From a virus: DNA of 35,633 bases. Shown here piece by piece: positions 7,016 through 34,759 of the stretch. A program made the translations under genes and the position numbers. The notes beneath the pieces are model-generated. The model did no database searches, was not told the origin of the DNA, and was given only the letters and a program-made list of their open reading frames with translations. The number at the start of each line of letters is the position of its first letter. The first letter of the stretch is position 1. The stretch lies in IMG/VR virus record IMGVR_UViG_3300028298_000017, positions 1 through 35,633 of that record. One strand, 5' to 3'.

Positions 7016-7016
7016 T

Positions 7017-7589: not shown

Positions 7590-8475
7590 GAGACCAAAAA
7601 AAGCTTTCTATGCTAAAGGTGGAAAATTACCTCCTACACTGCAACGTGTTTATGAACGTTTTTTAGATTCAGAAGCATCCGGTTCACCAACTAAAGTTTC
7701 CTTTAAAGAAATGGTAGAACCATATTATGGGGATCAATATCAAGTTGAAGTTGACAAAGCTAACGCATACCTAAATAAAGTTTTTCCTCTTTCTAAAACC
7801 AGAAAAGGTGAATTTAACACGGGATCTTTTAGTCGTGAAAACACAACAAAGAAAAAGTTTTTTGCTGACGGTGAAATGTTGCGGAATCCGCCTGCAATTC
7901 CAGTGAAATTAAAAGCACACACAACAAGTGGATCTCCAACGCCTTATCATTACACAACAACACAACTACCACCAAACGAGTTTATCCAATATGGAAATCC
8001 ATCACAGCAAAAAGAATATGCTAAGACCGGATATAGTCTTTTTAAAGATGAACTTGATACACCAACGGGTGGTTTTATGTCTGGAATTGAACACGAGGTT
8101 GGGCACTCCGCTTTTCCAGCAATGTCTTTTCTAGTTGATTCTGATCTTGCTTATACAAATGAATTTAAAGGAAGGGATCTTGAAGATGCGTATATAGCAA
8201 AAAGCGCAGAATTACCTAATGCTTTAGGTCGGTTAACTCGTGAACATTATTCTCTTACTGGAAAACGCATAAACAACGAAACCTTACAGGAGTTGTTTAA
8301 ATCAATTAAAAATGATGAAATAGATCCAGAAAATAAATATTCACCAGAATCACAACGAACACTTCGCGTACTTCAAAAATCTTTTAATAAAGTGGATAAA
8401 GGTGATCTGTATCGTGCAGCTGTAAACATTCTTCCAGGTCTTGTTGGCTTAACCAAAAACTATCCAATTTCTTAA
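7582..8475 (+). CDS. Putative zincin-like metallopeptidase, phage structural or lysis-associated, 297 aa
   Basis: Residues 170-176 read EHEVGHS, an HExxH zinc motif (His171, His175), and 35 residues later YIAKSAELPNALGRL offers Glu210 as a third ligand. This HExxH...AEL layout is seen in phage metallopeptidase-like proteins. The N-terminus carries FYAKGGKL and later KKFFADGE, the kind of 'F-A-x-GG' linker found in virion cargo proteins. The start at 7582 lies inside the end of the amidase gene, and the stop overlaps the terL start (TAATG). It could process virion proteins, act on the envelope, or be an injected protein. The motif is clear; the role is inferred. Confidence 0.6.
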   Translation: MPERPKKAFYAKGGKLPPTLQRVYERFLDSEASGSPTKVSFKEMVEPYYGDQYQVEVDKANAYLNKVFPLSKTRKGEFNTGSFSRENTTKKKFFADGEMLRNPPAIPVKLKAHTTSGSPTPYHYTTTQLPPNEFIQYGNPSQQKEYAKTGYSLFKDELDTPTGGFMSGIEHEVGHSAFPAMSFLVDSDLAYTNEFKGRDLEDAYIAKSAELPNALGRLTREHYSLTGKRINNETLQELFKSIKNDEIDPENKYSPESQRTLRVLQKSFNKVDKGDLYRAAVNILPGLVGLTKNYPIS

Positions 8476-10061
8476 TGTCTATTAATCCAGTTAACGAGTC
8501 CGTAGAAACTAAAGATGATTCTTTGGTTGTGGAAGCATTGCGTGTAAAGGCGTCTCATGAAGCCATGCGTAACGACATGGTAGAGCTTCGTCGGTTGCAG
8601 AGATTGGTTAAACTTAAACGGAATTACGGATTGCTCTTTTATGAACCTTTTGGAAAGCAAGATCAATTTCACGCGGCCGGTGCTAAGAAACGTCGGTATG
8701 TCAGAACGGGGAATCGTTTTGGTAAGTCCACCTTGGGCGCTGCTGAAGACGCTGCGTGGGCCATTGGTGAGAGAGTCTGGTACCCAGAAGGGGATCCGCG
8801 TCGCACAGCAGGCATACCTAGACGTTCTACTAAAGGTCTTATCATAGTCTCGGACTGGGAAAAGGCGAAAGAAATCTTCACTAATAATGCCGATGGCCAG
8901 GCCCAGGGTAAGTTGTTCAAGTTCTTACCTAAAGATTCTCTAGGACGTTGTCCAACTAATAATGCAGGGGTTATTGCTGAAATTAACGTGAAGTCAATCC
9001 ACGGCGGTTATTCAACGATTTACTTGGATACAGTTAAATCCTTTAAGGCTAACCCAATGGGTCAGGAATCGTCTGACTGGGATTGGATTCATGTGGATGA
9101 ACCTTGTCCAAAGGAAATGTGGATTGCCAATGCACGGGGTCTAATTGACCGGGACGGATCGGCTTGGTTCACGTGCACTCCAATCTGTGAACCTTGGATC
9201 AACGACATGTTTGTGCCACGGGCACAGGCACGGAAAGAAGTTAAGGGTGCGATTGAGTTAGACAAGAATCATTGGATGGTTACAGGGAGTAGTTACGACA
9301 ATCCTTATAACACCAAAGAGGCTTTGGAAATGTTTGAGAAGGATCTTACGGTTGAAGAAAAACAGTGTCGGATTGGTGGTTTGCCGCTTTCTTTGTCCGG
9401 TTTGGTTTATAAGGAATATAATGAAGACATTCACCTTCTCAAAAAGCTTCCATTTGGTTGGCAGGATTGGTTAACACCACCGTCTTCCTATACGTATCGT
9501 ATTTACATCGATCCACATCCACAAACACCACATGCGGTTCTTTTTGCTGCTACTTGTCCATACGGACCGGTGTTCTATTGGCACGAGATTTACCGTAAAT
9601 GCTTGATTTCTGATCTGTGTGACATGATCAATGAGGTTATGGTTGGTAAGGAAATTACCAGTGTCCTGTGTGATCCAGCAGCCTTTATTGAGTCACCAAT
9701 TGATGGTTTGTCTATGGCCGATGTATTCATGGACAATGGCCTTATAGTGGAGAAAGCACCCAAGGATCTGTCACGTGGTGTAATAGAGACCCAAGCGTTC
9801 TTGGGCGCGCGGGTGCTTTCTCCACACGGCACTGTGCTTCCTAAGTGTTACTTTTCGCCGCATTTGACTGAAACCCTATGGGAGTTTGATCATTATTACT
9901 GGTCTACGCGTAAGGATAAACCAGTGGATAAAGATGACCACATGATGGAAAACCTTTACCGTTCGGTGATTACTGATCACAGTTTTATCACGCAGAACAC
10001 CGCATATAAAGCCAGTGATTTCAAATCAAATCGTAAATTTAACCGCTCGTTAAAATGCTAA
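8475..10061 (+). CDS. terL: Terminase large subunit, 528 aa
   Basis: This is the ATPase/nuclease motor that packages DNA into the prohead. Walker A is GNRFGKST (79-86), Walker B is WIHVDEP (Asp208-Glu209) and the coupling segment is SAWFTCTP (229-236). The RNase H-like nuclease acidic residues are Asp346 in IYIDPHP, Asp400 in VLCDPAAF and Asp487/488 in DKDDHMMENL. Length and order are normal for the family. The start overlaps the upstream stop (TAATG) and the end overlaps the portal start by seven bases. Codons 2-9 contain a copy of the dispersed motif, so the N-terminus MSINPVNES may be shaped by a DNA signal. Confidence 0.95.
   Translation: MSINPVNESVETKDDSLVVEALRVKASHEAMRNDMVELRRLQRLVKLKRNYGLLFYEPFGKQDQFHAAGAKKRRYVRTGNRFGKSTLGAAEDAAWAIGERVWYPEGDPRRTAGIPRRSTKGLIIVSDWEKAKEIFTNNADGQAQGKLFKFLPKDSLGRCPTNNAGVIAEINVKSIHGGYSTIYLDTVKSFKANPMGQESSDWDWIHVDEPCPKEMWIANARGLIDRDGSAWFTCTPICEPWINDMFVPRAQARKEVKGAIELDKNHWMVTGSSYDNPYNTKEALEMFEKDLTVEEKQCRIGGLPLSLSGLVYKEYNEDIHLLKKLPFGWQDWLTPPSSYTYRIYIDPHPQTPHAVLFAATCPYGPVFYWHEIYRKCLISDLCDMINEVMVGKEITSVLCDPAAFIESPIDGLSMADVFMDNGLIVEKAPKDLSRGVIETQAFLGARVLSPHGTVLPKCYFSPHLTETLWEFDHYYWSTRKDKPVDKDDHMMENLYRSVITDHSFITQNTAYKASDFKSNRKFNRSLKC
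8482..8499 (+). repeat. Dispersed motif, copy 4, within the terL start
   Basis: TTAATCCAGTTAACGAGT matches the consensus with one change in the first half (T for G at position 5). It lies within codons 3-9 of terL, and GTT-AAC-GAG-TC encodes VNES. The giant gene copy (22134-22151) uses the same frame. Confidence 0.8.
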
Positions 10062-11983
10062 CGGATCAAGTAAAAGCTGAATTAAACCAAGACCAACCAA
10101 CGGACTTTCACGTCAAGTTGTTGGAACATGTGTTGATGCTGGTGGATATGTCACGTAGCCACATGAAGAATTACTATGCAGAATGGGATGCTGCACAGAA
10201 TGCTTATAAGGCTTATCAGAATCTGGACAAAGAAGACCGCAAAGCCATTCTTGATGGCACGCCAACAAAACAACGCGTGCCTATGGTGTATGCAAAAGTC
10301 CAAACGTTCAAGGCTTTTGTATTGTCTCTTTTCTTTCAACGTCCTCGCTTTTATGAACTTGATCCTGTGGGCGTAGAAGATCAGGACTATAAAGAATTAG
10401 CCGAAGTTCTCGTTGACAGGGACTTGAAACTTAACACTTGGTTCAACGTCGCCAATCGTTGGGCAGGAAACTTGGCTAAGTTTGGACTCGGGATCTTAAA
10501 GCATTCATGGGAAGAAGAGTTTGCTTATTTGAATATTACCACAGAAACCCCGCCACTTTCTTTCTTCGGTGTTGTTTTAGGGAAGCCGTCTAAGGTCACG
10601 ACTTTGACTAAAGTTCCCAAACGTTTGGGAAATAAGATCACTACTATTTCGCCGTATAACTTCCTACCAGACGTTCGCTTTCCGTTGGTTGAGTTTGAAC
10701 AAGGTGAGTTTTGTGCTGATGAAACTGACATCGCCAAGAACAAACTTCATCAGTTGGAAGCTGAAGGCATGTGTGCTGGTGTGAAGAACATTCAAGTTTT
10801 GTCTACAGAACGCAGTGCTTGGAGAATTCGCAACCGTGGCAATATCTTTTCCAAGATCGATTACCAAAATCCTTCCAGAACTCAGAACTTAGTTCGTTGC
10901 ACCGAAGTGCAAATTAAGATTGTTCCTAAGAATTTTCTTCTTGCCGACGGGCAACCATTAGGTCAAGAATCCTATCCGGTTAAATACCTACTTTGGATCG
11001 CCAACGACTCCCGTATCATTCGTTTGGAATCCATGAACTATCTTCATGATTGCTTCACATGGGATCTTGCTCAATACGATGAAGAAAGTGATACGTTCTT
11101 GTCCACTTCGCTTCCGCAACTAATCACACCTTTACAAGACACGGCCGACTGGTTCTTCAATTCTCGAGTATCCAATGTCGCCCAGAACCTCGAAGATAAA
11201 TTAATTGTGGACCCGGTCGGTGTTGACATGGATTCAATTAAGAATCGGGGCCGCGTCATTCTTCTAAAGAAAGGTGCCTCACGCGCAGGTGTGGATAAGT
11301 TCATCAAACAACTTGACGTCCGTGATGTCACTAACCGACACATGGAGGATGTGGGTCAGATTGGTCAAATGGTTAATAGTGTTTCCGGTATGACCGAGAA
11401 CCTTTCAGGTAATTACCACACTGGTCGCCGGTCTGCTGCCGAGTCACGGGTGGTTACACAAGGTGCCAGTGCACGGCCGAAGCTTATTGCACAGTCTGCT
11501 TGGGGTGCTTGTCTTGCTCCGTTTGGACAGAAGATTTTAACTAACCTTCGCCAGGGTTTAACCCCCGAAATGATTATTAAATATGCAGGTCAACAGTGGG
11601 CAGCACCAGAAAAACAACAAGCAATTCAACTATTTTCGTCTACTCCGCAAGATCTTCTTTGTGCTTGTGATCTTTTTGTGTATGAAGGCACGTTGGAAAG
11701 TGAAAAGAATTACCTTGCTCAACAACTAATGGAACTTGCACAGCAGGTTTTACAACTCGGCCCAACCGGGTTGCTTCAACTAAACATCTCACCAAAACTC
11801 TTGTTCGAGAAGATCTACGAACTTCTTGGTGTTGGTTCACTTTCCGCTTATGGTCTTGAAAAAGACCCACAGACTCTTCAAAACATTGTGCAACAAATAG
11901 CTCAGCAGATGGCTACACAAATGTTTGAACAGCAGCAACAACAGCAGCAACTCCTATCCGCACCATCAAATGGAACTCCGTGA
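10055..11983 (+). CDS. Portal protein, 642 aa
   Basis: This is the dodecameric head-tail connector through which DNA enters and leaves. Position directly after terL, length and the helical N-terminal region (SHMKNYYAEWDAAQNAYKAY, then VPMVYAKVQTFKAFVLSLFF) fit the large podovirus portals. The stem/wing region includes ISPYNFLPDVRFPL, and a middle helical segment reads MEDVGQIGQMVNSVSGMTEN followed by SAAESRVVTQGASARPK, which is typical of portal clip/crown regions. The C-terminus is Gln-rich (MFEQQQQQQQLL), a low-complexity tail often disordered in portals. Start and stop both overlap neighbours. Confidence 0.85.
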   Translation: MLTDQVKAELNQDQPTDFHVKLLEHVLMLVDMSRSHMKNYYAEWDAAQNAYKAYQNLDKEDRKAILDGTPTKQRVPMVYAKVQTFKAFVLSLFFQRPRFYELDPVGVEDQDYKELAEVLVDRDLKLNTWFNVANRWAGNLAKFGLGILKHSWEEEFAYLNITTETPPLSFFGVVLGKPSKVTTLTKVPKRLGNKITTISPYNFLPDVRFPLVEFEQGEFCADETDIAKNKLHQLEAEGMCAGVKNIQVLSTERSAWRIRNRGNIFSKIDYQNPSRTQNLVRCTEVQIKIVPKNFLLADGQPLGQESYPVKYLLWIANDSRIIRLESMNYLHDCFTWDLAQYDEESDTFLSTSLPQLITPLQDTADWFFNSRVSNVAQNLEDKLIVDPVGVDMDSIKNRGRVILLKKGASRAGVDKFIKQLDVRDVTNRHMEDVGQIGQMVNSVSGMTENLSGNYHTGRRSAAESRVVTQGASARPKLIAQSAWGACLAPFGQKILTNLRQGLTPEMIIKYAGQQWAAPEKQQAIQLFSSTPQDLLCACDLFVYEGTLESEKNYLAQQLMELAQQVLQLGPTGLLQLNISPKLLFEKIYELLGVGSLSAYGLEKDPQTLQNIVQQIAQQMATQMFEQQQQQQQLLSAPSNGTP

Positions 11984-13008: not shown

Positions 13009-14409
13009 ATGTCGTTTACAGCAAATCAAATCCTTGGACTCGTCTCCGGTGCAAATTTCGAGACCGAAGGATGGTATAATCGCACCAATCGTCGTCGCAT
13101 CTTCCGCGACTTCCCGCAGGGACAGTTTCCCCTCACAGGGTTTCTGTCATTAATGGACACTGAACCTTGTGACAGTTACAAATTCGGCTGGTTCGAAAAA
13201 CGCATGCCTGATTTGTCCACCACAATTGTGACCCACACCAATGGTGCTTTCTGCGCCGCGCATTCGTCAACGGCAGTGGCAAGTGATTCAACCTTCACCG
13301 CTGGCACGGAATACCGTTGCTATCTGTCGGATGTTTCCTTGTTCGCAGTCGGGCAACAAGTCCTGTTCGACGACCTGCCAATCACCGGCGGCGCCTTCGC
13401 ACCATTGCAAGGTATTGTTACCTCCGTGGTTTCTACCACTTCACCCGGTAGCTACATCCAGTTCCATTGCGTTGAAACGTTGACGAACGTGCTGATGAAC
13501 GACAACACGATCACCGGGATCCCCAAGGGTCCTAAAGGTCAGAAGGTCCTCATCATGGGCACGGCAAACGTTGAAGGTGGCACGTCCGGCTCAGGTCGTA
13601 TGTTCCCACCCATCGACGTGGAAAACTACACGCAAATCTTCCGCAATTCGTTCGAGTTCACGGCTACCGGTCTGAAAATTCCGACTGAATTCGATTCGTC
13701 TGGTGCTTATGCCGAAGCCGCAGAAGATGCCTTGCGTGAACACATGGTCGAAATGGAACTCGCTTTCCTGTTCGGTTCGAAGGGTGTCCAGTTAATCACC
13801 GGCACCGATAGTGTGGCGCGTCCACGTCGCACGACTGGTGGTATTATCTGGTATCTCAAGCAATGGGAAAAAGTCGATTCCATCTATCGTCTTGGCACCG
13901 GTGCACCAGCAGTTACCCGTAATGATGATGACCTCAAGCGCATCATCGATCTGACCGGTGCCATCACTGCGGCCAAGTTTGACGAATTTATCGAGCGCGC
14001 CTTCCGTTGCACCAATACGAAGACGTTTGAAAAGATCGTCATGTGCGGCAACGGATTCCTCCGCTCCGTCAATAACTATCTGTCCGCGAAGGCTACCCTT
14101 TACAAGGAGTTCTCCGTGCAGAAGGTTTACGGCAACGACGTGGTCACTTGGGTGTCTCCTTGGGGAACACTCCACTTCAAATCCCACCCGTTGTTCAATC
14201 AACAGTCGATTCTCCGTAACAACGGTTTGATCATCGACATCAATCGTCTCCGTTTCCGCCCGCTGAATGACCGCGACACGACCCTGCTTCCCAACCGGCA
14301 AGCAAACGACGTGGACGGCCGTAAGGACGAGTGGCTGACTGAGGCCGGCTTGGAGACGCAATTCCCCGAGTCCCACATGTATATCCGTAACTTGACCTCG
14401 ATCACCTAA
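13009..14409 (+). CDS. Major capsid protein, 466 aa
   Basis: Length and position after scaffold indicate the main shell protein. The pattern DALREHMVEMELAFLFGSKG followed by RPRRTTGGIIWYLKQWEKV, and near the C-terminus VTWVSPWGTLHFKSHPLF, match capsid proteins of the DUF5309/SU10 type, which have a HK97-like fold. Codon choice is more G/C-ending than in neighbours, as expected for the most abundant protein. The leader (CACACAAATAGAACATACAT) has no Shine-Dalgarno and is rich in A and C. A short gap with an inverted repeat and a CAA-rich leader follows. Confidence 0.85.
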   Translation: MSFTANQILGLVSGANFETEGWYNRTNRRRIFRDFPQGQFPLTGFLSLMDTEPCDSYKFGWFEKRMPDLSTTIVTHTNGAFCAAHSSTAVASDSTFTAGTEYRCYLSDVSLFAVGQQVLFDDLPITGGAFAPLQGIVTSVVSTTSPGSYIQFHCVETLTNVLMNDNTITGIPKGPKGQKVLIMGTANVEGGTSGSGRMFPPIDVENYTQIFRNSFEFTATGLKIPTEFDSSGAYAEAAEDALREHMVEMELAFLFGSKGVQLITGTDSVARPRRTTGGIIWYLKQWEKVDSIYRLGTGAPAVTRNDDDLKRIIDLTGAITAAKFDEFIERAFRCTNTKTFEKIVMCGNGFLRSVNNYLSAKATLYKEFSVQKVYGNDVVTWVSPWGTLHFKSHPLFNQQSILRNNGLIIDINRLRFRPLNDRDTTLLPNRQANDVDGRKDEWLTEAGLETQFPESHMYIRNLTSIT

Positions 14410-17588: not shown

Positions 17589-18137
17589 ATGAGTGAATTT
17601 AAGTCATTTGACCAGCGTGTTGCGGAACGAAAAGCCAACAAGGAAAAGGCTGAAAAGTATCGTGAACGCAGGATTCGCTTGATGGGCGAACGTAGCTTAC
17701 GTGATCAATTACGGATCGAACGTGCAGATCGTGCGGCGATCAAAAGAGGTGAGATTCCTTCTACTAAATTACAGCAGTTGGACGAAGATCGTAAATTTGC
17801 GGATCTTGGTATGCGTATTGATGAAGCCAAGAAACGGATTCGTCAACTAATGCCGGAGCAACCCGTCGAGCAACAAGTTGTTACTACACGAACAGGTTTT
17901 GAATCTAATCCAATACCCGAAAGTCCCGGACAAAAACCAAGACCAACTTTATTAAATCCGGGTGGCGCCACGTTTGGGTTATACAAATACGGTGCAAATG
18001 GTTGGGGTAATATGTATTTTTTAAATGGAATTGCTATTGCTGCAAATGCACCGCTTACAACAGATTTAGTTCCGGATAATACACCAGTCTATGGGATTGG
18101 ACCTGCTGATGCTACTATGTATACAAGCTTACCTTAA
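17589..18137 (+). CDS. Coiled-coil virion protein of unknown function, 182 aa
   Basis: Residues 1-95 are highly charged and predicted helical or coiled coil (VAERKANKEKAEKYRERRIR, then ERSLRDQLRIERADRAAIKR). The remainder is a Pro/Gly-rich region with GGATFGLYKYGANGWGNMYF. No catalytic motif is seen. It is one base after the upstream stop and heads a group of three proteins leading to the giant, which in podoviruses are internal core or ejection proteins. The charged helical half could bind DNA or partner subunits. No family is recognised. Confidence 0.5.
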   Translation: MSEFKSFDQRVAERKANKEKAEKYRERRIRLMGERSLRDQLRIERADRAAIKRGEIPSTKLQQLDEDRKFADLGMRIDEAKKRIRQLMPEQPVEQQVVTTRTGFESNPIPESPGQKPRPTLLNPGGATFGLYKYGANGWGNMYFLNGIAIAANAPLTTDLVPDNTPVYGIGPADATMYTSLP

Positions 18138-18142
18138 TCAAT

Positions 18143-18742
18143 ATGAAAACTAGACAACGTCGGGCGGCTTTACGTTCCCCTTATCTCACGGCACCACCGG
18201 ATCAAGATTCCATGGATATGGAAATGATGAAACAGCTTGGATTGTTTAATGATCCATTGGCTGAACTTGCTGGGTTAGCGCAGATCAACAGTAATATTCA
18301 AGAGCCGGGACAACGCCAGCAGCAAATTGATCTCCAGCGTTCGGCACAGGACATTGGGATTAGTCAGTTTGCGCAAACGCAGGACTTGAACAAGTTGAAA
18401 CTCCAGCAGGACAAAGAGTCCGAGCACATGTTGGACGAACGTTGGACTCGTGATTTTGCTTTGAAGAAAGCACTTGGGGATCAAGAACACGCAGATCGCG
18501 TGAGTGCTTTGACCGCTGGATTGGATGAAGCAACGCAACGTTCGATTTTCGGGTTATTCTCGTTAATTCCTGATTTCGCTGCGGCCGGTGTTCAATCCGA
18601 TCCCAATGCCTTACGTCCATTCTTAGACAAGGTTCGTCCAGGTCTTGGTGGCTTCTTGGGTTTAGCAGCAGACAAAGAAAGTAAAGCAAGAACACCAATC
18701 GAGCTTTCTTTGGAACAGGCAAGAAAACGTAAAGGTCTTTAA
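18143..18742 (+). CDS. Putative internal virion protein, 199 aa
   Basis: The protein is Gln/Leu/Ala-rich and mostly helical, with QQQIDLQRSAQDIGISQFAQ and LQQDKESEHMLDERWTRDFA, then a hydrophobic helical segment (QRSIFGLFSLIPDFAAAGVQ) that could insert in a membrane. Such amphipathic composition before larger internal proteins is typical of small ejection proteins analogous in place to T7 gp14. The start has AATCAATATG and no Shine-Dalgarno. Identification rests on position and composition only. Confidence 0.5.
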   Translation: MKTRQRRAALRSPYLTAPPDQDSMDMEMMKQLGLFNDPLAELAGLAQINSNIQEPGQRQQQIDLQRSAQDIGISQFAQTQDLNKLKLQQDKESEHMLDERWTRDFALKKALGDQEHADRVSALTAGLDEATQRSIFGLFSLIPDFAAAGVQSDPNALRPFLDKVRPGLGGFLGLAADKESKARTPIELSLEQARKRKGL

Positions 18743-18763
18743 CCCTAACTCACAACTACTATT

Positions 18764-19618
18764 ATGGCTACTACAACTAAAAAACGTCCTTGGGAAGATT
18801 TAACCGACACGGAAGTACTCGGAGATATCGCATCTGAATCTGGTCAAAACAAGCGGGCAATGCTTGGTGATATCCTAAAACCGCGGAATAAAATCGCGCA
18901 AAGTCCGCAAAATGCACAACGGTCCCACGGGCTTGCTGGATGGTACGAACTAAATCCTCAAGCTCGGCAAGGTGAATCCTACAACAACGAACGTAAACGT
19001 TTGAAACTCGAAGCTCAACGTGCGGGTGAATTGGCAGACGCCGATCATCGGGTGGAGTTGGCGAAACGGGAAGCCGAACTTTCTAAATACGCGCCAACGG
19101 TGAAGACTGTGATTCCAAAGGGAACTTCGGCGCCCGGAGGTAAAGAACAACCGGGATTGATGAAACTTGCGTGGGACGCAATCAAGCATTTGTCCACACA
19201 ACTTGGACAAGCGCCACCGATCGTTAAACAACCCAAGGGTAAACCGACGGATGGTCCGTGGGGAGATCCGTTAAAAGATTTGCCTATGGTACAGACACCG
19301 ACGATACCACCGGCGCCAGATCTTGCTAATCTTACAGCTAAGGATGAATTTAAACCGATTGATACTACTAAGTATCCTCCTGTGCCGGGAATGCCAGAAA
19401 GAACGGGGGGTTCTTCCAATTTAAATTTTAAACCAGTTGGACTTCTGCCTAAATCATCTAATCAAGAAGTTCAAACCACACAATATATGTTGTATAAAAG
19501 TCGTGGATATACTACACGTCAAGCCGCACAACTTGCTGGTTTACCAATTGATGACTCACCCACGGGTTTAGGCAATTCTGGTCTTTCTACTTTGTACAAA
19601 ACACTTAATCGTTTCTAA
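18764..19618 (+). CDS. Putative internal virion protein, 284 aa
   Basis: The N-terminal half is helical and basic (RLKLEAQRAGELADADHRVE), the middle is Pro-rich and disordered (TPTIPPAPDLANLTAKDEFK), and the C-terminus has a small helical motif, YKSRGYTTRQAAQLAGLPID. That last part resembles an HTH-like or short repeat but is not diagnostic. The gene ends seven bases before the giant gene and is preceded by an A/C-rich leader (AACTCACAACTACTATTATG). An internal or ejection protein role is inferred from its place. Confidence 0.5.
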   Translation: MATTTKKRPWEDLTDTEVLGDIASESGQNKRAMLGDILKPRNKIAQSPQNAQRSHGLAGWYELNPQARQGESYNNERKRLKLEAQRAGELADADHRVELAKREAELSKYAPTVKTVIPKGTSAPGGKEQPGLMKLAWDAIKHLSTQLGQAPPIVKQPKGKPTDGPWGDPLKDLPMVQTPTIPPAPDLANLTAKDEFKPIDTTKYPPVPGMPERTGGSSNLNFKPVGLLPKSSNQEVQTTQYMLYKSRGYTTRQAAQLAGLPIDDSPTGLGNSGLSTLYKTLNRF

Positions 19619-19624
19619 TCATAC

Positions 19625-22600
19625 ATGGACACCCTAACTCCTGCTTCCCCAGAAGAACTGCAACAAGTCTACGGAAACATCACTGACCGTGATGAGATGT
19701 GGAAACAGTTGCAATATGAAAAGGCGAATAATCCAGTCTTTGAAGGATTGGACGAAAAGCAAATTGGTTCTGTAATCAATGAAGCTACAGGAGCACAGCC
19801 GGGTTCTCGTTTTGAAGTATTCAATTCACGTTCACGTTGGGTTGATGCATTAGGTTATAAAGTCGCCAAGACCGTCGAAGGTGCGCCGGGTAGCCTAGGT
19901 GGGTTGAGTGATCTGGTTTCTGGTCGAAAAATCAGTTACACTCTGGGGGACCTAGGTTCCGACGTTGGCAAGAAGGTTGCTAATACATTTGGTGTCACAG
20001 ACCCCACAGGTCTGGCCATGTGGGAGAACGCGGGTCGTGGATTGCCCGCCGGTCTCGCAACACTTGCCCTTGGCGCAATACCTTATGTTGGTTTACCAGC
20101 AATGGTAGGTGTAGGTTACGGTCGTGCCGTCAATGATGCAAAGATTGCCGGTGCGTCTGGACAAAAAGCATTTGCCGTTGGTGCTATTGACACCGCGGTT
20201 AATCTTTTGTTCATGAAAGCCGGTGCACCACTTGCGGATAAAATGGCAGAGAAAGCACTAGGAAAGGTCATGGGCGATAGTGCTGTGCAGTCTCTTGCGG
20301 ATCTTAGTGGTCTTGTGATCAAACCTGGGTTACACAATACAGGTAAACAAATCAACGGTCGAGCTTTAGTTGAACTTGCAGCAGAGACTGGTAAGATCAC
20401 CGGAGTTCAAAAGTTTGGTGTTCGTCTTGCGCAAGAAGTAGCAACTGAATCAATCCAAGGTGTTATCGGTTCGGTTGGACAACTTGCCCATGAAGGCATT
20501 CTAGATCCTGAAGGGTTAAAGGAACGTATGGCTAATCCCAACTATTGGGCAACAATGGCAGCAACACAAGGTGTGTTCTCTGTTGTGGGAACCACTCTTG
20601 GCCGTATTCGTGAACCAAATCCTTTGAAAGCTTATGAACTTGGTGCAGGTGCACAGAAACTAGCGGCAGAAAACGTAGATCGACTGGCTAAAGATCACGC
20701 AAACGTAATCGAAACAGCTAAGGAAGAAATCAAAACCGCGTTCGAAGCCAAAGAAGGTGATGATGCTCTCGAACCAATTGTAACTCCAACACCAGAAACT
20801 ATCATGATGGTTGGTAGTGCTTTGCAAGCGTTAGACCTTATCGGTTTAACTGACAATGCAGCACAAGCAGCCACACGGATGTTAGTTGGAAAAACCCCAG
20901 AACAAATCGAAGGTCTTGTTGCTGCGGCGAAGAAATTACCTGTCGTGGGTAAACCCGCTTTACCTTCTGGATTCAACGTGCTTAAATCTCAATTCTCGCA
21001 CATCGAAGTTGAAACTCCGACTTCAGCTGTTCCGAATCTAGTCTTTACTAGAGAAATGTTTGCGGCTCCATATGAGGACACTTTTAAAACCCTTATCCAT
21101 CCTGAGCAACAAATCGCGTTTAAGGAAATGTATGATTTCACACACGCAGAATTTCAAAAACAAGTTACAGAACGCACTGTTCATTATCAAGACACAATTA
21201 CTCCGGAAAAACAACTAAGCTATGGCACGTTTTTAAATCAAACTGGTTTAGCTAAAGCTGCTGAAACGACTAAATCACAAATTCACTTTACTGATTCTAG
21301 ACAAACTAAAAACTGGTTAACCAAATTCTTTGTCTCACCCTACGATAGTGTCTCCCGTGTCATCATTGGTGATAAAACTATGTTCTATGTCAATTCAAAT
21401 CACGCTACGCGTGCGAGTGATTTACATGAAATTGGACACGTCTTTGATTATCTTGTGGATGCCGGAGGTTACGGTGAACAACACAAAATCGAATGGACAG
21501 CATTAAAAGAAAAGTTCACCTCGAACGACATTCCCTTAATGCGCAATCGCATTCCTGACCAATCCAACATTCTTGGTGCAATGGTAGGTAGTAAGCGTGG
21601 ACTCGAAGTAACAAATGATGCAGTAACTCCATGGTCACGTAATGATTACTCCGTCGAATCCATTCAACGTTATTATCAAGAACGGGGAGAATGGGCAGCC
21701 CAAGCTGTACAAGGATATTTCCTTGGTAACAAAACCAAGTTTAAATCCTTTGTCGAAACCAACTTCCCTAAAATTCACGAACTTTTCATGACCATTGCGC
21801 AGTCCATCAAATCAATGGTAGGGCGAAAGAAAGGTAACATCACACGTACGGAACGTGATAGTCTTTGGAACAACGGACAAACCGAAGCAAATAAATTCTT
21901 CGAAAGTCTCTTCACTTCCTTCACGAAGAAAAACACCGCCGAAGAAATTCCAATTCTTTTGAAGAAGTATGGATTAGATCAACCAGGTTTTGAACTTCAC
22001 AAAGAAGCCCTCGTTGCTGCAATCACGGCCCACGAAACACTTGGCACCAAGCCTTTAGTTCTCGACATTCTTAATGGATGGGATAAAGATTTTGATCCCG
22101 ACGGTTTACAATTACTCGATCAACTGGCGTCTGTTAAGCAGGTTAACGAGTCTGGGTTTATCGGGGATGTGGGAGCGGCTCCGCAGGGAATTAACCTGCC
22201 AGCAATCCAACGGTTGATGCAGGTTGATCCGGATAAGGTAAGGGGAATTGCTAAGAGTAATTATACTTTGGAAGGATCAAAGCTTTCGACTAAACGTAAA
22301 GGTAAACCGGATGGATTATTTTACGGAACCAAGGTGGAGGATGTGATTGAAAATGGCGGAGTTGCAAATGTAAAGGATTTACCAACTTCTGGGCGGAATA
22401 TTTTAACCATTAAACATAAAGTTTTGGAGAATACTGGCGATGCTTCTAATGCACCTGGGAATGAGTTACTGCATAGTGGTATTGTTAAATTAGATCAAGA
22501 TTTATATGATTTGATTCAAGGGAAGTCTGGAATGGAACAACCTTTGGATACTGATTTGCTGGTTGCATTACAGCTAAAACGGGACGGGTATGATGTTGTG

Positions 22601-25600
22601 CATATGGTTGATCCAGTAGATGACACTAGTGTCGTGTCTATGAATCTGCAACACACAACTGAAAAGCAATTGTTTGATGAGTTAGCCAAACGGCTTTCGC
22701 CAACGCATAAGGACGATCCAGGTCTTGAAGCTTTTGCAACTAATTTAATTCAAGTTAAACCTAAAGTATCTCCAGTTGTTCAAGCACACTTGGATATGCT
22801 TAAAGATTTACCTGCACGTGGAAGTCGTGCGTTGGCTGCGATTGATTCTGCAATTTCGTTGTGGTATGAACAAGTTATAAAGTCTAAACTCGAGTTTAAC
22901 CAAAAACAAGCTAAGTCCAAAGGAGTTGCCGCTGAACCAATAGAGAAAACAAGTTATCTCGAGACACAAGAGTATTTGTTTAAAGTTAATGAAGTGGTTC
23001 AAAAATGGATTGTAGGTAAATTGGATGGTCAAGAAGGCCGGTATATGTGGGATAAGGGTCCTATGCGGGGAAGTGAATTTGGTGTATACACAGGAGAAAA
23101 GTATAATGCACGTGAGGCTGTGGAAATTCGGCAACGAGTGTTGCAAGATGAATTTCCAATTCTTTCCTCCGCTATTCGTAAAATTCCACGTAAGGATTCA
23201 CCGCAGGAAGAATTTGTTCACGTTAATGGACAAGAAAAAGGTGAAGTCTTAAAGTTTGACACACAAGAAGAAGCACAAGAGTATGCTAAAGTGCAGAACG
23301 AAGCGGGAAATAAACCCGGCTGGTATCATATTCCAAAGCGGTTAAGTGTAGCTGGAGACAAATCACTTTCTCCAGAAGCACGCAAGGCAATGGTTGATGC
23401 ACAACGTGTGACACATGAAGAAAAAGGAACCGGGAAGAAGTTTAAATTTAAGGATCCTACAAAGGTTGAGAAGTGGGGAATTATTACTCGAAAGGGTGAA
23501 GATCAAATTGGTGCTACGTATTTTGAAGATGAAATGACCAAGATTGGTCAGCATAACCTTTTTGATGAATTGAGCGATGAGCCCGCTGTTTTGGATACTT
23601 TCATCACACAAAGAAAAGAACAGCTAGAAAACGAGAAGTTAGTTTCAGTTGAAAACCACGTCGTGTCTTGGACAAAGCAAATGTTTGCTAAACGTCGGAA
23701 GTACGAACAAGCCTTCCCGTTAAAGATGGAGCAGGCATTGACTTGGTTGGAAACTTATAACCGAGAATATCCTGAGTTTAATCAACGCTTGACAAGTGAA
23801 CTTGGAATTAAGTCCAAGAACACAGAAGATGTTTTACTTGGCTTGATGGATTTGTATAATAAAGATCCACAACGCGTTAAGGATTATCTTAAGTTCAGTC
23901 CCTATCCTTTGGTTACAACCTGGAAGAATTGGGTTGAAGTTGTGAAGATGCAACTTGCGGCAGATATTCCGGAGAGTATTCAGATGTTCTATGCAGGTGA
24001 GGTGCCACAGTTACTGAACGATTCAGGAGTATGGGAACGTGGTTTGGATAAAATTGTCCCGGTTAATGATCCAGAGTTCCACGAAGCCATTCCGATTTTA
24101 CAACACGCTGATGTGGGTGGTTTGTTACGTAAAAACGCAGTGGGTATTACCTATGCGGGTGCCGCACCAAAAACGCTGATTGGTAAAACCATGTCGTGGA
24201 TTGAAAAACTTCATACACGTTCGTTTGGAGGAGTTCAAAATATTGCAGAGACTATTAAGGAATTTTTACCTTTAGGTAATATTCTTTGCAAAGAAGGTGC
24301 GTTTCAAGACTACCATGGATTCAAGGGTATTCAGTGCCTTCGAGGTTCTGGTGAAATGGGAGTCTTACCAGACGGGACTAAGGGTTGGATTACGGCATTT
24401 GGGTCTGAGAAACAATCACCGGATACTTATATGGCTATTAATACCAGCCAGAAGATGAAGCCAATTGCCGAGAGAATCATGCGCATGCAGAACGAGGCTG
24501 GGGGCGAAAAGTTTTCGGAAATTCTGGCTAACGTAATAACAAAAGATAAACCGACACCAGATGAAGTCAAAGCTCGGGCAGATTTAGCTATTGAGGCTAA
24601 TAAACTAATTTCAGATAACTTCGATTTGAATAATCCAAAACACCGCGCGGAGTTGGATCAATTGACAGAGTATCTGGAAAGAACTTACGCTTGTCAACGC
24701 GAGTTTGCAAATCTACATTACGAGAGTGAAAAAGAAATACATCTTGCCGTAACGTCAAATGCGTTTTTCCGTGGTGTTGATTTCCGAGGAACTCCAGAGC
24801 AAGCCAAAGATCTAGCAATGCAGTATCATTCAATTCCTCGTGGTACACCTGAAACTTCATTAGCACAATTAACTTTGTTGACCAAACCCATAGATGCGGG
24901 TGGTTTAGGCTTTGAGGATCAACGGGCTTTATCGTTTCAAGCGAAATGGAATGAAGCAGCAGATGCTATAGAATTAATGCGGCAAAAGATGTTGTCTACA
25001 CCAGGGTTTGTCTCAGAACAAAGACTCCGGCGTTGGCAAGTTTCCTATGCGCAGAATGGTAAAGTTGCTGGTGAAAAACCTGGAACGGGTTTGCGTGACT
25101 TTGATACACAAGAAGAAGCTTGGGCGTTCTGGAAGCAGTTGGAGATTGAAGGTAAAGAAAAGAATAAACCAGGAGTTCGTCGTAACACTGGGCAACAACC
25201 ACTTGACACGCATTTACGTGATGCCAATATTCGTACTGGATCTGATATTCTAGACGAAGTTGTGACTAAAGTTGTCACGGCCAGACAGGAACTTTTAACG
25301 TTCATGTTAGAACCGTTAGTTGAAAACGGGACGTTGAATGAAGATCAAATGCGTAGTTTCCTTAAGACTATGTCAGGTATGTCGGAAGACATTAGTGCGG
25401 ATTCGGTATCTGGACGCCTGAAAGGAATTCTTGGAAAGCATCGGATACTTAAAGCTGGTCGGGAAGATCTGGACATGGCGTATCAGCAAGAAGAAAGTTT
25501 CTGGCGTAGTTCAATCAAATACGCACGGAAGATTACTGATTCATGGTGGGAGTTGCATATTAATGATCAACGGCTCGCAGCATATCCTAAAGAGCGTGAT

Positions 25601-27505
25601 ATTTTCATTGCGGAGAAGAACGCAATTAGGTATCCAGATGGTAAAGGACAACGAATTGCAAGTAAAGTCGCGTTTAGTTACTTTATTCTTGGGAATATTT
25701 CCTCAGCAATGATTGAAGCTTTACAATGGCCTTTATCGTTGAGTCACATTCTTATTGAGGAAGGTGGCGGCATCATTGAGTCTTTTACAGCACCTTCTCG
25801 TTTATTTGCAAAAGCCGGACGAGCAAGTATTAAGCGTGTATTAGCTGGAAGTGATGCTTCTATTTGGTCACCGGAAGAATTTAAGTTAATTCGTTACACG
25901 GAAGATTCCGGTAGGCTTGGTGTTCGTCCTTTGAATGATATCTCAACCGACGACACTGCTTCCAAGATTCAAGCATCTCGGATGGCGACTAATCCTGGTG
26001 CGACGAATGGATTGTTAAAACCAGCAACTTATGCTGAGGCCGCGTTCAAAAGTCTTAATCACTTTTACGCTTTCTTTAGTCGGGTTAATGCAGAGTTATG
26101 CTTGGTTGCTGCACATGAACTTGTAATGAAACGCGACTATAAAGGTCGTAAGTTATCTGAGTTGGAATTACAAGAATCGTATGAGAAAGCAATTCGGATT
26201 ACCAATAAAGCCAACGGATCTTGGGGTCGCACAAATCGTCCTTGGTGGTTCCAGACTAGAAGTCAAACGGGACGCACGGCCGCTCAACTTGCTTGGAGTT
26301 TGCAAGGATTTGCTAGTAACTACGTTGCTAATCACTTGAGATTGCTACGGCATAGTTTTACTGGAAAAGATGCTGGATTGTCTAAGGAAGAGGTTACTCG
26401 TTCTCGTAAAGCACTAGCCGTGATGACGACATTACAGGTTGCTGGATTAGGTGTTATGGGACACACCCTAGCTGCTGGCTTATCCAAAGCAATGACGGCC
26501 ACTTTTGGATTTGATCCAGAAACCGAATTAAAAGATTTCCTTGAGGACAAGACACAGCTTGAACCCGAAGACGCCTTGGCGATGTCCGACCTTGTGTCTT
26601 ATGGTGCGTTCCACGCATTAGGTGTTCCGGTTGACTTCCAATCCCGTATGGCTGTCTCAGGACTTGGTCCGTTGAATGCCTATGATGGTTGGAATGCTTC
26701 AAGCTTTGCTGGACCCGTCATGTCTACGTTAGGTAATCTTGTTGATGGCTGGCAAACAATAGCCAAGGGCGATGGGTCTGCAGCGAGTTATATGCGATTC
26801 GGCACGGGCTTGTTACCAACTGGAATACAACGTGCCATTCGTATGGAGATGTTTGATGATGGAAAGGTCTTTAACAAGTCTGGACGTTTCATTATGGACC
26901 CAACGGTAGGGGAAAAGGTTGCTGGAGCTTTAGGGTTTGGCTCACCTAGGTATAGTGATTACATGAAAGCAAAGACTAAATCCATCGAAGCAAACGTGCG
27001 CGATGGTGTTGATAAGTCTCGTGCTGCTGCAACGATTAGGACTGAGTTGAATTTAGGTAATCGCTTTAGGGCAATCCAAATGTTGAATGAAGAAGCGGCA
27101 AGACTAAACACAGATCCTAAGACGTTAGCGGATCAAGTCGCAAAACTGGATCTGGTTCAGACTTTTGGCCCGCAAGACACCATTGGTGCTGGCCCACAAG
27201 CACAAAGGGCAGCCCGTCTTTATCCAACAGCACTGCCCAAGGCAACGGAGAACGAAAAGAAAACTCGTCAGTTTAGAACTTTATCACAATTAAATCAACT
27301 TCCACAAACATGGCGGCGTCAACTACGACAAGCAGACATGCGTGATACGGCAATGCAAATTGCTCCGCATTTAACTCCATCAGCCACCAGAAACCAATTA
27401 CAGAATCCGCTGTTCAAATCGACGGTCCTTTCTGTGATGAATTCACAAGGAGCATCTCGCACATCGGTGGGCCTGTCAGGATTTGACGTCGGAGCTTTCC
27501 AGTAG
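19625..27505 (+). CDS. Giant internal/ejected virion protein with zincin domain, 2626 aa
   Basis: At 2626 residues this is the last gene of the structural arm, as for the large ejected proteins of podoviruses. An N-terminal hydrophobic Gly/Ala region (GLATLALGAIPYVGLPAMVG, about residue 140) is followed by a zincin motif, LHEIGHVFDYL (His601, His605), with a possible third ligand Glu689 in RGEWAAQAVQGYF. A region from LFYGTK (about 898) to GYDVVHMVD (about 988) may be a separate enzymatic-type domain. A short module with FDTQEEA occurs twice (about 1211 and 1826). Hydrophobic helices recur near 2026-2044 and 2260-2285. The mosaic resembles phage 'polyvalent' injected proteins. I see no lysozyme or RNA polymerase motifs. 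Confidence 0.75.
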   Translation: MDTLTPASPEELQQVYGNITDRDEMWKQLQYEKANNPVFEGLDEKQIGSVINEATGAQPGSRFEVFNSRSRWVDALGYKVAKTVEGAPGSLGGLSDLVSGRKISYTLGDLGSDVGKKVANTFGVTDPTGLAMWENAGRGLPAGLATLALGAIPYVGLPAMVGVGYGRAVNDAKIAGASGQKAFAVGAIDTAVNLLFMKAGAPLADKMAEKALGKVMGDSAVQSLADLSGLVIKPGLHNTGKQINGRALVELAAETGKITGVQKFGVRLAQEVATESIQGVIGSVGQLAHEGILDPEGLKERMANPNYWATMAATQGVFSVVGTTLGRIREPNPLKAYELGAGAQKLAAENVDRLAKDHANVIETAKEEIKTAFEAKEGDDALEPIVTPTPETIMMVGSALQALDLIGLTDNAAQAATRMLVGKTPEQIEGLVAAAKKLPVVGKPALPSGFNVLKSQFSHIEVETPTSAVPNLVFTREMFAAPYEDTFKTLIHPEQQIAFKEMYDFTHAEFQKQVTERTVHYQDTITPEKQLSYGTFLNQTGLAKAAETTKSQIHFTDSRQTKNWLTKFFVSPYDSVSRVIIGDKTMFYVNSNHATRASDLHEIGHVFDYLVDAGGYGEQHKIEWTALKEKFTSNDIPLMRNRIPDQSNILGAMVGSKRGLEVTNDAVTPWSRNDYSVESIQRYYQERGEWAAQAVQGYFLGNKTKFKSFVETNFPKIHELFMTIAQSIKSMVGRKKGNITRTERDSLWNNGQTEANKFFESLFTSFTKKNTAEEIPILLKKYGLDQPGFELHKEALVAAITAHETLGTKPLVLDILNGWDKDFDPDGLQLLDQLASVKQVNESGFIGDVGAAPQGINLPAIQRLMQVDPDKVRGIAKSNYTLEGSKLSTKRKGKPDGLFYGTKVEDVIENGGVANVKDLPTSGRNILTIKHKVLENTGDASNAPGNELLHSGIVKLDQDLYDLIQGKSGMEQPLDTDLLVALQLKRDGYDVVHMVDPVDDTSVVSMNLQHTTEKQLFDELAKRLSPTHKDDPGLEAFATNLIQVKPKVSPVVQAHLDMLKDLPARGSRALAAIDSAISLWYEQVIKSKLEFNQKQAKSKGVAAEPIEKTSYLETQEYLFKVNEVVQKWIVGKLDGQEGRYMWDKGPMRGSEFGVYTGEKYNAREAVEIRQRVLQDEFPILSSAIRKIPRKDSPQEEFVHVNGQEKGEVLKFDTQEEAQEYAKVQNEAGNKPGWYHIPKRLSVAGDKSLSPEARKAMVDAQRVTHEEKGTGKKFKFKDPTKVEKWGIITRKGEDQIGATYFEDEMTKIGQHNLFDELSDEPAVLDTFITQRKEQLENEKLVSVENHVVSWTKQMFAKRRKYEQAFPLKMEQALTWLETYNREYPEFNQRLTSELGIKSKNTEDVLLGLMDLYNKDPQRVKDYLKFSPYPLVTTWKNWVEVVKMQLAADIPESIQMFYAGEVPQLLNDSGVWERGLDKIVPVNDPEFHEAIPILQHADVGGLLRKNAVGITYAGAAPKTLIGKTMSWIEKLHTRSFGGVQNIAETIKEFLPLGNILCKEGAFQDYHGFKGIQCLRGSGEMGVLPDGTKGWITAFGSEKQSPDTYMAINTSQKMKPIAERIMRMQNEAGGEKFSEILANVITKDKPTPDEVKARADLAIEANKLISDNFDLNNPKHRAELDQLTEYLERTYACQREFANLHYESEKEIHLAVTSNAFFRGVDFRGTPEQAKDLAMQYHSIPRGTPETSLAQLTLLTKPIDAGGLGFEDQRALSFQAKWNEAADAIELMRQKMLSTPGFVSEQRLRRWQVSYAQNGKVAGEKPGTGLRDFDTQEEAWAFWKQLEIEGKEKNKPGVRRNTGQQPLDTHLRDANIRTGSDILDEVVTKVVTARQELLTFMLEPLVENGTLNEDQMRSFLKTMSGMSEDISADSVSGRLKGILGKHRILKAGREDLDMAYQQEESFWRSSIKYARKITDSWWELHINDQRLAAYPKERDIFIAEKNAIRYPDGKGQRIASKVAFSYFILGNISSAMIEALQWPLSLSHILIEEGGGIIESFTAPSRLFAKAGRASIKRVLAGSDASIWSPEEFKLIRYTEDSGRLGVRPLNDISTDDTASKIQASRMATNPGATNGLLKPATYAEAAFKSLNHFYAFFSRVNAELCLVAAHELVMKRDYKGRKLSELELQESYEKAIRITNKANGSWGRTNRPWWFQTRSQTGRTAAQLAWSLQGFASNYVANHLRLLRHSFTGKDAGLSKEEVTRSRKALAVMTTLQVAGLGVMGHTLAAGLSKAMTATFGFDPETELKDFLEDKTQLEPEDALAMSDLVSYGAFHALGVPVDFQSRMAVSGLGPLNAYDGWNASSFAGPVMSTLGNLVDGWQTIAKGDGSAASYMRFGTGLLPTGIQRAIRMEMFDDGKVFNKSGRFIMDPTVGEKVAGALGFGSPRYSDYMKAKTKSIEANVRDGVDKSRAAATIRTELNLGNRFRAIQMLNEEAARLNTDPKTLADQVAKLDLVQTFGPQDTIGAGPQAQRAARLYPTALPKATENEKKTRQFRTLSQLNQLPQTWRRQLRQADMRDTAMQIAPHLTPSATRNQLQNPLFKSTVLSVMNSQGASRTSVGLSGFDVGAFQ
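22134..22151 (+). repeat. Dispersed motif, copy 6, inside the giant gene
   Basis: TTAAGCAGGTTAACGAGT differs from the consensus only at the variable base and the A before GTTAAC. It lies inside the coding sequence around residues 837-843 (VKQVNES), in the same reading frame as the copy in terL. Confidence 0.75.
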
Positions 27506-28625
27506 TCACAAGGAAGTCAAGTGCTTCGTCAATCTCCTTAGCATTACCGTCATTATACATAAGGGCTAACACTTGCTTCTTGGCCATCTGGCCCGCTGGA
27601 GCTTCTTCGATACAGTGAAGGACTTTATGAGCGATGTCTGCACCAATGTTACGGCCAGCACCGGCGAAGATACGTCCAATGTCCGGCTCGACCTGGTCCA
27701 GCATTTCAATACCTTTAAGCAAATGAGGAAGATCAATTACATTTTCCATCTCGAACTCAGAGACTACCAGTAACATACACACCTTGATCAGGACAACGTC
27801 CTTACTCCGCAGCCAGTTCTTATACACGGCGGAATGAGGCTTGTTCAGTTCAAGGTGTTTTCGTTGATACCAAGCAGAGAAGTAATGTTTAGCTTCGGGT
27901 GACATTGAGAACGGTCCACGCCACTTGTGGATCTCAGGGAGCATGGTTAACAACGCAGTCTTTGCATCCTCTTGTGCTTGGTCTAGCTTAGGAAAAGGAA
28001 TCCCGGTTGCCTTACTTCTCCCGTAGACAAAAATAACTCGGCGTGAAAAGCCACCCGTAATGATGTTTTGTTTCAACATTGAACCCGTTTGTTCCGGTGT
28101 CATGCACGCCATCAAAGTAATATACGGCCCGATGATAATGTCCGTCCCTTTGTTTTTTGTCACAACTTCGAAGATTTCCCGGTCGTAGATATCCGTAAGG
28201 AACTCAATCATTCCAATGGGATTTCCACCCGCCGACAACATGGTGACTATTTCCGAAGCAAAAATGGACAGATGTGCAAACTCGTGGATCGTATTGTCTA
28301 TGGTTGTTTGTTTGAGACATGGAGATTTTTCGTTGGATGAGGAAAGTAATAACGTAAGTGCCTCTTTCGTAATTGACGGCGGGCCCAGTGGCGTATCCGT
28401 TTTCTGCACAAGATTTCGCGCCGTGTTAAGCGCTGTAGTCTTCTTGTCTCCGGGTTCACCCACAAATACCACATAAGTATTGGGGTAGATTTTGTAATAA
28501 GTTTGGTCGAACCATATACGTCTACCAATGATTGCGGATAAAGTTCCAATAGCTGCCCAACGATGAAAGGTGGGACTTGCTTCATTCCCGGAGGCATAGA
28601 GTTCATAAGTTTCAATGAAGTTCAT
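27414..28625 (-). CDS. DUF3987-type replicative ATPase/helicase-like protein, 403 aa
   Basis: The N-terminus (ASPTFHRWAAIGTLSAIIGR) and the P-loop VGEPGDKKTTAL (about 55-66) match the DUF3987 family of phage and mobile-element ATPases, in which the glycine before the lysine is often replaced. Glu125 in IFASEIVTML is a likely Walker B region, and TLMACMTPEQTGSMLKQNII is typical of the family's C-terminal core. A C-terminal winged-helix-like segment is present (KEIDEALDFLVTTGKLRRQI). It is the last gene of the replication operon and probably substitutes for a DNA-unwinding ATPase, since no other helicase is seen. Its 3' end overlaps the giant gene antisense by 92 bases. Confidence 0.65.
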   Translation of the reverse strand: MNFIETYELYASGNEASPTFHRWAAIGTLSAIIGRRIWFDQTYYKIYPNTYVVFVGEPGDKKTTALNTARNLVQKTDTPLGPPSITKEALTLLLSSSNEKSPCLKQTTIDNTIHEFAHLSIFASEIVTMLSAGGNPIGMIEFLTDIYDREIFEVVTKNKGTDIIIGPYITLMACMTPEQTGSMLKQNIITGGFSRRVIFVYGRSKATGIPFPKLDQAQEDAKTALLTMLPEIHKWRGPFSMSPEAKHYFSAWYQRKHLELNKPHSAVYKNWLRSKDVVLIKVCMLLVVSEFEMENVIDLPHLLKGIEMLDQVEPDIGRIFAGAGRNIGADIAHKVLHCIEEAPAGQMAKKQVLALMYNDGNAKEIDEALDFLVTTGKLRRQILTGPPMCEMLLVNSSQKGPSI

Positions 28626-33241: not shown

Positions 33242-33269
33242 AGCGGTGCGAATGGATTGTTGGCGTTCT
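33242..33269 (-). repeat. Duplicated leader segment (second copy at 32916-32940)
   Basis: On the leftward strand AGAACGCCAACAATCCATTC, plus a further GCACC and GCT, directly precedes the ATG at 33241. AGAACGCCATCAATCCATCC plus GCGCC precedes the ATG at 32915, with 22 of 25 bases identical and both followed by ATGA. The second copy lies inside the C-terminal codons of the gene at 32912-33241. It looks like a duplicated translation-initiation context. Confidence 0.65.
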
Positions 33270-34759
33270 TAAACAAACTGTGCTTGACCGTTGCATATTT
33301 CGTTCAACTTCTTCTTGATCGCGTTAAGCCCTTTATAGAAGTGGTCGGGATCAAGCTCAATTCCCATCGGCGTAAGTCCCAAGTCAATTGCGGCACGGAT
33401 GGACGACATTTGTCCGCAGTAAGGATCCAATACAACTTGCCCTTTATACGCAATAGCCTCGTAGATAAAGCGCCATACGATAGCCGGTTTGGCAAACGGA
33501 TTGTCATACAATTTTCGTTCGGCAGTCGAATCTCCGATGACAACACAGGATGACTGGGGCTTGTTAAGCACAGCTCCGCCCTTACGTAAGACCATAGCGA
33601 ATTCGACATTTTTAGTGTAGTTTTTAGTCGCCGCATTATTACGGCATGGATGTAGTTTGTGCCACACGAGTGGCCATCTTTGTGGTTTGAAACCCACTTG
33701 CTTTGCCCAGTTGTGCAACTTTTCGTGGTGTTCGAGATCATACCAAAACACACAAAAACCGTTTGGTTTGAGCAAACGGAATGCGTTTTCTAGAAACGGA
33801 AGCATCATCGAAACGTTTTGTTCTGCTTGATGAGTTTCGACAACGGTGTCAAGGTTCTTGATCGTGTCGAGGTTGTCCATATCGATTCCGTAAGGGATAT
33901 CGGTAATGACATGATCGACAGATTCCGGATTAAACTGTGGCATTATTTCTAAGCAGTCTCCAATGAAGTAGAGTTTGGAAAGCTCAAAGACCTTAGTCTC
34001 AAGGATCTGTGTTTCCGAAGGTGTGGCGAAGTCGGAAAGATTCAACACGTTCGGGTCGTTTGGTTCGATGACCTGCGGCTTGTCCATGAGATCATTGAAG
34101 ATATCGTTCACGTTGATTGTGCCAACGAAACCAGAGCCGACAACTTTTGTCGCGGCACCGGTGAAACCTTCTTTCAATCTCACGGCTTCATTCTCACGGC
34201 GCTTGAGAAGAATCTCATACGCGATGCGAAGTGATGGTGCATCACAAATCTCTTGATCACCAGCGATTAGGAACGTGCGAATCTGATACGCATGAGAGAC
34301 TGAAGCATTGGACACTCCAAGCAACGCACCGGTGTCCCTCATGCCCCACGTCTTATGTGTCTCATTAGCTTCCGCGACTTTTAGTTCGTGCCCACGGGCG
34401 ATGAGGAACACGCGTTCCTTCCAGTTCATATCCAACCGGCGGAAGTTTTCCTCGCCTTCCATCTCAACAATCTGTGAGATTGGAAGATCTTCGAATGAGA
34501 TTACTGGAAGCCAGTCATTACCTGACATGATCATTGCCGCAGTGCGACGTCCGCCTGCTATCAAGATGTAATCCTTATCACCGCGTTTAGAAACAGTGGG
34601 AGGGTGAATCAAGCCAGTAGTAGCAATGCTCTCGGCCAGGTCTTTAAGATCGCCGTAGTCTTGACGACTACGATCTTTAACATCGAGCCACGATTTATGA
34701 ATCAAGATGGCTTGTTCAGGATAAATAAACGACGGCGGTGTTGGTGTGTCTGTTATCAT
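33269..34759 (-). CDS. ParB-like domain fused to a DNA methyltransferase, 496 aa
   Basis: Residues 34-80 have the ParB N-terminal pattern (DLAESIATTGLIHPPTV, then ILIAGGRRTAAM), followed by a helix-turn-helix of the ParB type around 140-165 (ALLGVSNASVSHAYQIRTFL). Residues 260-496 form an SAM-dependent methyltransferase: YFIGDCLEI, catalytic-type motif DIPYG (287-291), and SAM-binding LDPYCGQMSS (444-453) with GIELDPDHF. A DxPY motif implies N6-adenine or N4-cytosine methylation. ParB-methylase fusions occur in phages and mobile elements. The start at 34759 overlaps the upstream stop (ATGA) and is preferred to 34798. The predicted binding site is unknown. Confidence 0.85.
   Translation of the reverse strand: MITDTPTPPSFIYPEQAILIHKSWLDVKDRSRQDYGDLKDLAESIATTGLIHPPTVSKRGDKDYILIAGGRRTAAMIMSGNDWLPVISFEDLPISQIVEMEGEENFRRLDMNWKERVFLIARGHELKVAEANETHKTWGMRDTGALLGVSNASVSHAYQIRTFLIAGDQEICDAPSLRIAYEILLKRRENEAVRLKEGFTGAATKVVGSGFVGTINVNDIFNDLMDKPQVIEPNDPNVLNLSDFATPSETQILETKVFELSKLYFIGDCLEIMPQFNPESVDHVITDIPYGIDMDNLDTIKNLDTVVETHQAEQNVSMMLPFLENAFRLLKPNGFCVFWYDLEHHEKLHNWAKQVGFKPQRWPLVWHKLHPCRNNAATKNYTKNVEFAMVLRKGGAVLNKPQSSCVVIGDSTAERKLYDNPFAKPAIVWRFIYEAIAYKGQVVLDPYCGQMSSIRAAIDLGLTPMGIELDPDHFYKGLNAIKKKLNEICNGQAQFV

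Follow-up and report, generated by a model that had tools for sequence, protein, structure and literature searches.

This locus raises the question of what is encoded by a single ORF of 2626 residues that accounts for 22.1% of the 35.6 kb window (the whole stretch of viral DNA analysed, 35,633 nucleotides) and is longer than any other gene of this short-tailed phage. The original prediction, which noted an ORF filling more than one-fifth of the window, described the product (here the giant) as a mosaic virion protein that is likely to be injected with the DNA and that carries a zincin domain and perhaps a second enzyme domain. The observation itself is confirmed and the frame is intact; the reading placed on it is partly supported. 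In our view, the giant is an ejected polyvalent protein with a zincin domain, a reading to which we assign a probability of about 0.78. The features discussed below are collected in Table 1.

Table 1. Features of the giant ORF and of neighbouring genes in the window.
Feature	Position	Strand	Basis
Terminase large subunit (weak match)	8475..10061	+	phrog_10250, E=0.0035
SU10-type portal protein	10055..11983	+	PF23899, E=5e-10
SU10-type major capsid protein	13009..14409	+	PF17236, E=1.3e-32
Three ORFs (182, 199 and 284 aa) directly upstream of the giant	17589..19618	+	Other ejection-protein candidates, by position only
Giant ORF (2626 aa), probably a polyvalent virion protein that is ejected	19625..27505	+	ATG start, intact frame, last structural-cassette gene as in relatives
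Hydrophobic Gly/Ala-rich stretch, aa ~143-162, possible membrane segment	20051..20110	+	Hydropathy scan
Zincin domain, aa 500-770 (modelled region)	21122..21934	+	Family alignment, profile, AF2, structural alignment
HEIGH, aa 601-605, predicted zinc ligands and catalytic Glu602	21425..21439	+	Motif, alignment
Glu689, predicted third zinc ligand	21689..21691	+	Alignment, later helix
Aa 896-1000, originally proposed as another enzyme domain	22310..22624	+	No family match; model pLDDT under 70
Divergent tail-700 (PLxRFG) domain, aa ~1774-2443	24944..26953	+	NCBIfam NF032893, clade alignment
DUF3987/primase-like gene converging on the giant	27414..28625	-	PF13148, E=8e-13; phrog_14296, E=5e-39

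Genomic setting of the giant

In this SU10-type podovirus, the gene for the giant is the final one of the structural cassette and is convergent with the primase and DNA polymerase genes. The polymerase (29721-32174, minus strand) combines an N-terminal uracil-DNA glycosylase domain with 3'-5' exonuclease and family A polymerase domains, and a further gene on that strand (33269-34798) fuses a ParB_N domain to an N6/N4 DNA methylase. An endolysin-like gene (6984-7589, plus strand; phrog_435, E=3.8e-26) lies upstream of the terminase. The three ORFs directly upstream of the giant gave no informative family match. The giant ORF itself matched nothing in Pfam or PHROGs, no whole-length relative was found in the phage records and viral contigs searched, and the single sequence had no match among PDB sequences.

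Searches with the capsid and portal proteins identified the phages Mel-JY34, VS-ABTNL-3, Kuura, LS06-2018-MD01 and CRP-810. In each of the first four, the largest ORF comes last or nearly last among the structural genes and is oriented towards the replication genes, and that of CRP-810 adjoins an annotated internal virion protein. Among 39 viral loci selected by their polymerase, 26 have an ORF of at least 900 residues antisense to the DNA polymerase gene. All 14 giants that cluster with that of Mel-JY34 contain HExxH or HExxxH. The latter form, which was described by Iyer et al., replaces HExxH in the giants of loci L011 (HEMVAH) and L027 (HEVFGH). The syntenic giants of the Kuura type have no zincin motif, which indicates that the zincin is dispensable to the class.

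Sequence and predicted fold of the zincin domain

HEIGH is the only HExxH in the giant. Since HExxH occurs in 5.5% of shuffles of the protein (HE-[ILVAFT]-G-H in 0.1%), the short motif is suggestive and is no proof. Its pairing with Glu689 is stronger evidence. When the giant was aligned with eight related segments, which had been picked for HExxH without regard to anything downstream of the motif, His601, Glu602, Gly604, His605, Tyr683, Glu689 and Ala692 were invariant. His601, Glu602, His605, Tyr683, Glu689 and Ala692 are likewise invariant in a 51-row alignment of the giant with 50 other phage zincin segments; as these rows were required to hold both HExxH and E[WYF]x[ASG], the free evidence consists of Tyr683, together with the eight-segment set for Glu689 and Ala692. 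The first histidine and the glutamate are 88 residues apart in the giant, and across the zincin family this spacing is mostly 71-96.

A profile of 52 zincin sequences matches both halves of the domain in the giant, correctly ordered, at residues 572-607 and 677-766, with a score of 7.0 bits compared with at most 4.9 bits in 300 shuffles, and hhalign gave p=8.2e-6 for the glutamate half of the domain. A wider scan for the family recovered 80 loci. The catalytic residues of the giant are kept at about 15% identity to its relatives, and taken as a single sequence its match to the family is weak. A search of its own record with alignment A6 gave no match, and a full-sensitivity local search gave the weak one; Pfam MPTase-PolyVal (PF18818) did not match the record up to E=10. 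When a zincin profile was run against PDB sequences, the list consisted almost only of HExxH metallopeptidases (best E 0.011). We also considered a His-7-HExGH-2-Asp signature, after Iyer et al. A DNA-pattern scan for it returned 35 mixed stretches and no relative of the giant's zincin, and the signature was dropped because His593 and Asp608 vary in the family.

The zincin fold that the original prediction expected around residue 601 is consistent with the AF2 model of residues 500-770. Calculated on the large alignment, this model has a mean pLDDT of 69.7 and a pTM of 0.64, with pLDDT values of 80-90 in the core around the active site. The predicted elements follow a zincin-like order of strands (551-556, 576-581 and 584-590), a helix bearing HEIGH (596-612) and a later helix bearing Glu689 (687-700). 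An earlier model of residues 471-1060 built from nine sequences had a mean pLDDT of 42 and was left out of the fold search. In VIA-align, every one of rows 1-26 was a zincin-like domain, either from an anthrax toxin factor or from a PPEP peptidase, with Z values (up to 4.5) that are modest and matches that are uniform in kind. The N4 and polyvalent MPTases had previously been linked to lethal factor by profile search (Iyer et al., PMC5512222). Foldseek alone found no significant match to the model in the PDB; against viral models, its top matches were phage polyvalent proteins. In our view, the alignments and the model together make a zincin in the giant well supported, with Glu689 as the predicted gluzincin-like third ligand in a later helix; HEIGH and Glu689 had been read in this way from the start.

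The second enzyme domain proposed at residues 896-1000 fared less well, as neither Pfam, NCBIfam nor ART-PolyVal matched this region and the model there is of low confidence. An ADP-ribosyltransferase at about residues 896-1010 was considered and rejected, with no match to ART-PolyVal (PF18760) up to E=10. The region falls within the long stretch of the giant between the zincin and the tail-700 domain.

The tail-700 domain and the spacing of modules

The C-terminus of the giant aligns collinearly with the tail-700 clade over residues 1774-2443 (p=1.3e-4). NF032893 matches residues 1998-2450 with E=1.2e-11, although the score of 43.8 bits is below the curated cut-off of 100. As in the PLxRFG proteins of this NCBIfam family the alignment spans the whole tail-700 domain, but the giant differs from them in its sub-cut-off score and in a degenerate motif, VSEQRLRRW, where its relatives have YFPLxRFG. 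A short element containing FDTQEEA is present twice in the giant (23222-23320 and 25064-25174; 43% over 37 residues), and the second copy sits at the PLxRFG end of the tail-700 alignment. The C-terminus also aligns with L132-L134 (E=2e-5); L132, which was found through its zincin, is itself a tail-700 protein. No relative of the C-terminus was found in the bacterial genomes searched.

Tail-700 matches were obtained in 17 of the 24 giants scanned, a count that includes the giant of the window, and the zincin and tail-700 occur together in 49 other phage giants that were fetched. Cultured relatives that have both domains are Vibrio phage VS-ABTNL-3 and Microcystis phage Mel-JY34. The distance between the two is 361-413 residues in 37 of these giants, 484-514 in two, 726-802 in eight, and 1216 and 1452 in the remaining ones, a stepwise distribution which suggests inserted blocks. 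At about 1170 residues the giant of the window is among the long ones, so that one or more blocks seem to have been inserted there. The term mosaic is apt in this respect, since the zincin and tail-700 are found at stepwise spacings and one may be present in relatives where the other is missing. The same zincin family is also found in ORFs of about 700-790 residues without a tail-700 match (L136, L139, L141, L163 and others).

These results place the giant in the class of polyvalent proteins (Iyer et al., 2017; PMC5512222), of which it is a very divergent member. The class is recognized by at least two disparate domains in one chain, here the zincin and tail-700, and by a late virion-gene context, which the giant shares. 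Like the giant, polyvalent proteins are multidomain and encoded beside late structural genes, and their MPTase zincins combine HExxH with a glutamate from a helix further along the chain. The C-terminus of the giant is homologous to L084 (32% over residues 2321-2438), which is typical of polyvalent proteins and carries LPD1, LPD37 and InPase domains; at the N-terminus there is a hint of similarity to L084 alone (E=0.004). Wider N-terminal homology to the clade was rejected, a small profile giving p=0.024 and a deeper one p=0.29. Unlike polyvalent proteins, the giant matches neither Pfam MPTase-PolyVal, ART-PolyVal nor any LPD domain, and about 1000 residues between its zincin and tail-700 are without family assignment.

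Probable delivery of the giant and possible roles of the zincin

Packaging and ejection of the giant are likely by analogy, because SU10 gp24 and the N4 virion RNA polymerase (vRNAP) are ejection proteins encoded in the same place; it is this synteny that supports the predicted virion role. SU10 gp20-24 are present in virions and gone after genome release (PMC9509320), and the gene for gp24 (163 kDa, 116 peptides) ends its cassette (PMC4281155). This proven ejection protein resembles the giant in being encoded last among the structural genes of a phage with the same capsid and portal families. In contrast to the giant, gp24 has 1473 residues and lacks HExxH, a tail-700 match and any detectable sequence match to it, and the link between the two is therefore positional; homology of gp24 to tail-700 was tested for and not found. 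The N4 vRNAP (gp50) is an ejection protein of 3500 residues with an HExxH domain (PMC12633501), and this domain, whose motif is HELVH, matches the zincin profile of the giant's family (p=2e-5). In both phages the last structural gene encodes a giant in which a large C-terminal domain comes after the zincin. The giant of the window, however, has no RNA polymerase match, and the C-terminus of the vRNAP has no tail-700 match. Gp15-17 of epsilon15 also gave no tail-700 match. That the zincin and large C-terminal domain are an ejection chassis shared by descent between tail-700 giants and the N4 vRNAP is, in our view, doubtful.

We propose that the giant would be expressed along with the capsid genes and loaded into the head, and that it would enter the cell with the DNA or just before it. 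Its hydrophobic Gly/Ala-rich N-terminal part may touch the membrane, and the tail-700 C-terminus would form the conserved chassis. The zincin would be a zinc peptidase that cuts the giant itself into working pieces, either in the head or after entry. For the zincins of polyvalent giants, processing of the giant before or after delivery has been proposed, as has action on host proteins (Iyer et al., PMC5512222). That the catalytic residues stay intact at about 15% identity points to an active enzyme. In most relatives the zincin stands at a nearly constant distance ahead of tail-700, which favours a built-in role, for example self-processing; that some syntenic giants lack it indicates that it can be lost. 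On these three grounds we rank self-processing above host cleavage and host cleavage above a purely structural role. We favour self-processing as the main role tentatively, at somewhat below even odds, and note that the N4 vRNAP is packaged uncut (PMC5512222), which counts against it.

If the zincin is instead an effector that cleaves host proteins (defence or envelope factors, for instance) directly upon entry, its catalytic residues would be kept just as they are, and its absence from some syntenic giants is what optional cargo would predict. The nearest solved folds also include peptidases with specific protein targets. The 361-413 residue spacing in 37 of 49 giants, however, looks more built-in than swappable, and we regard host cleavage as possible but rather unlikely as the main role. 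Alternatively, the zincin may no longer be used as an enzyme and may serve as a structural part on which packaging or ejection depends. N4 offers a precedent: encapsidation requires the region that contains the zincin domain, yet the protein is not cut (PMC5512222), and the polymerase domain of the vRNAP is acted on by the C-terminal part of the same protein (PMC12633501). A structural role would not, however, require the two histidines, the glutamate between them and the second glutamate to be invariant across very divergent members, and the domain is missing from some giants in the same place; we consider this role unlikely. That the giant is a non-packaged or tail-bound late-operon protein, as the word 'tail' in the NCBIfam name of its C-terminal domain might imply, is less probable still, since SU10 and N4 have proven head-packaged ejection proteins in the same place.

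These results link a very divergent metagenomic giant to an established class and to a pair of phages with studied ejection proteins. They also locate the catalytic residues in a phage peptidase that is widespread, so that self-processing and cleavage of host proteins would be separable by a one-residue change. If the chassis is common to tail-700 giants and the N4 vRNAP, different cargo would have been inserted around a core formed by the zincin and the C-terminal domain.
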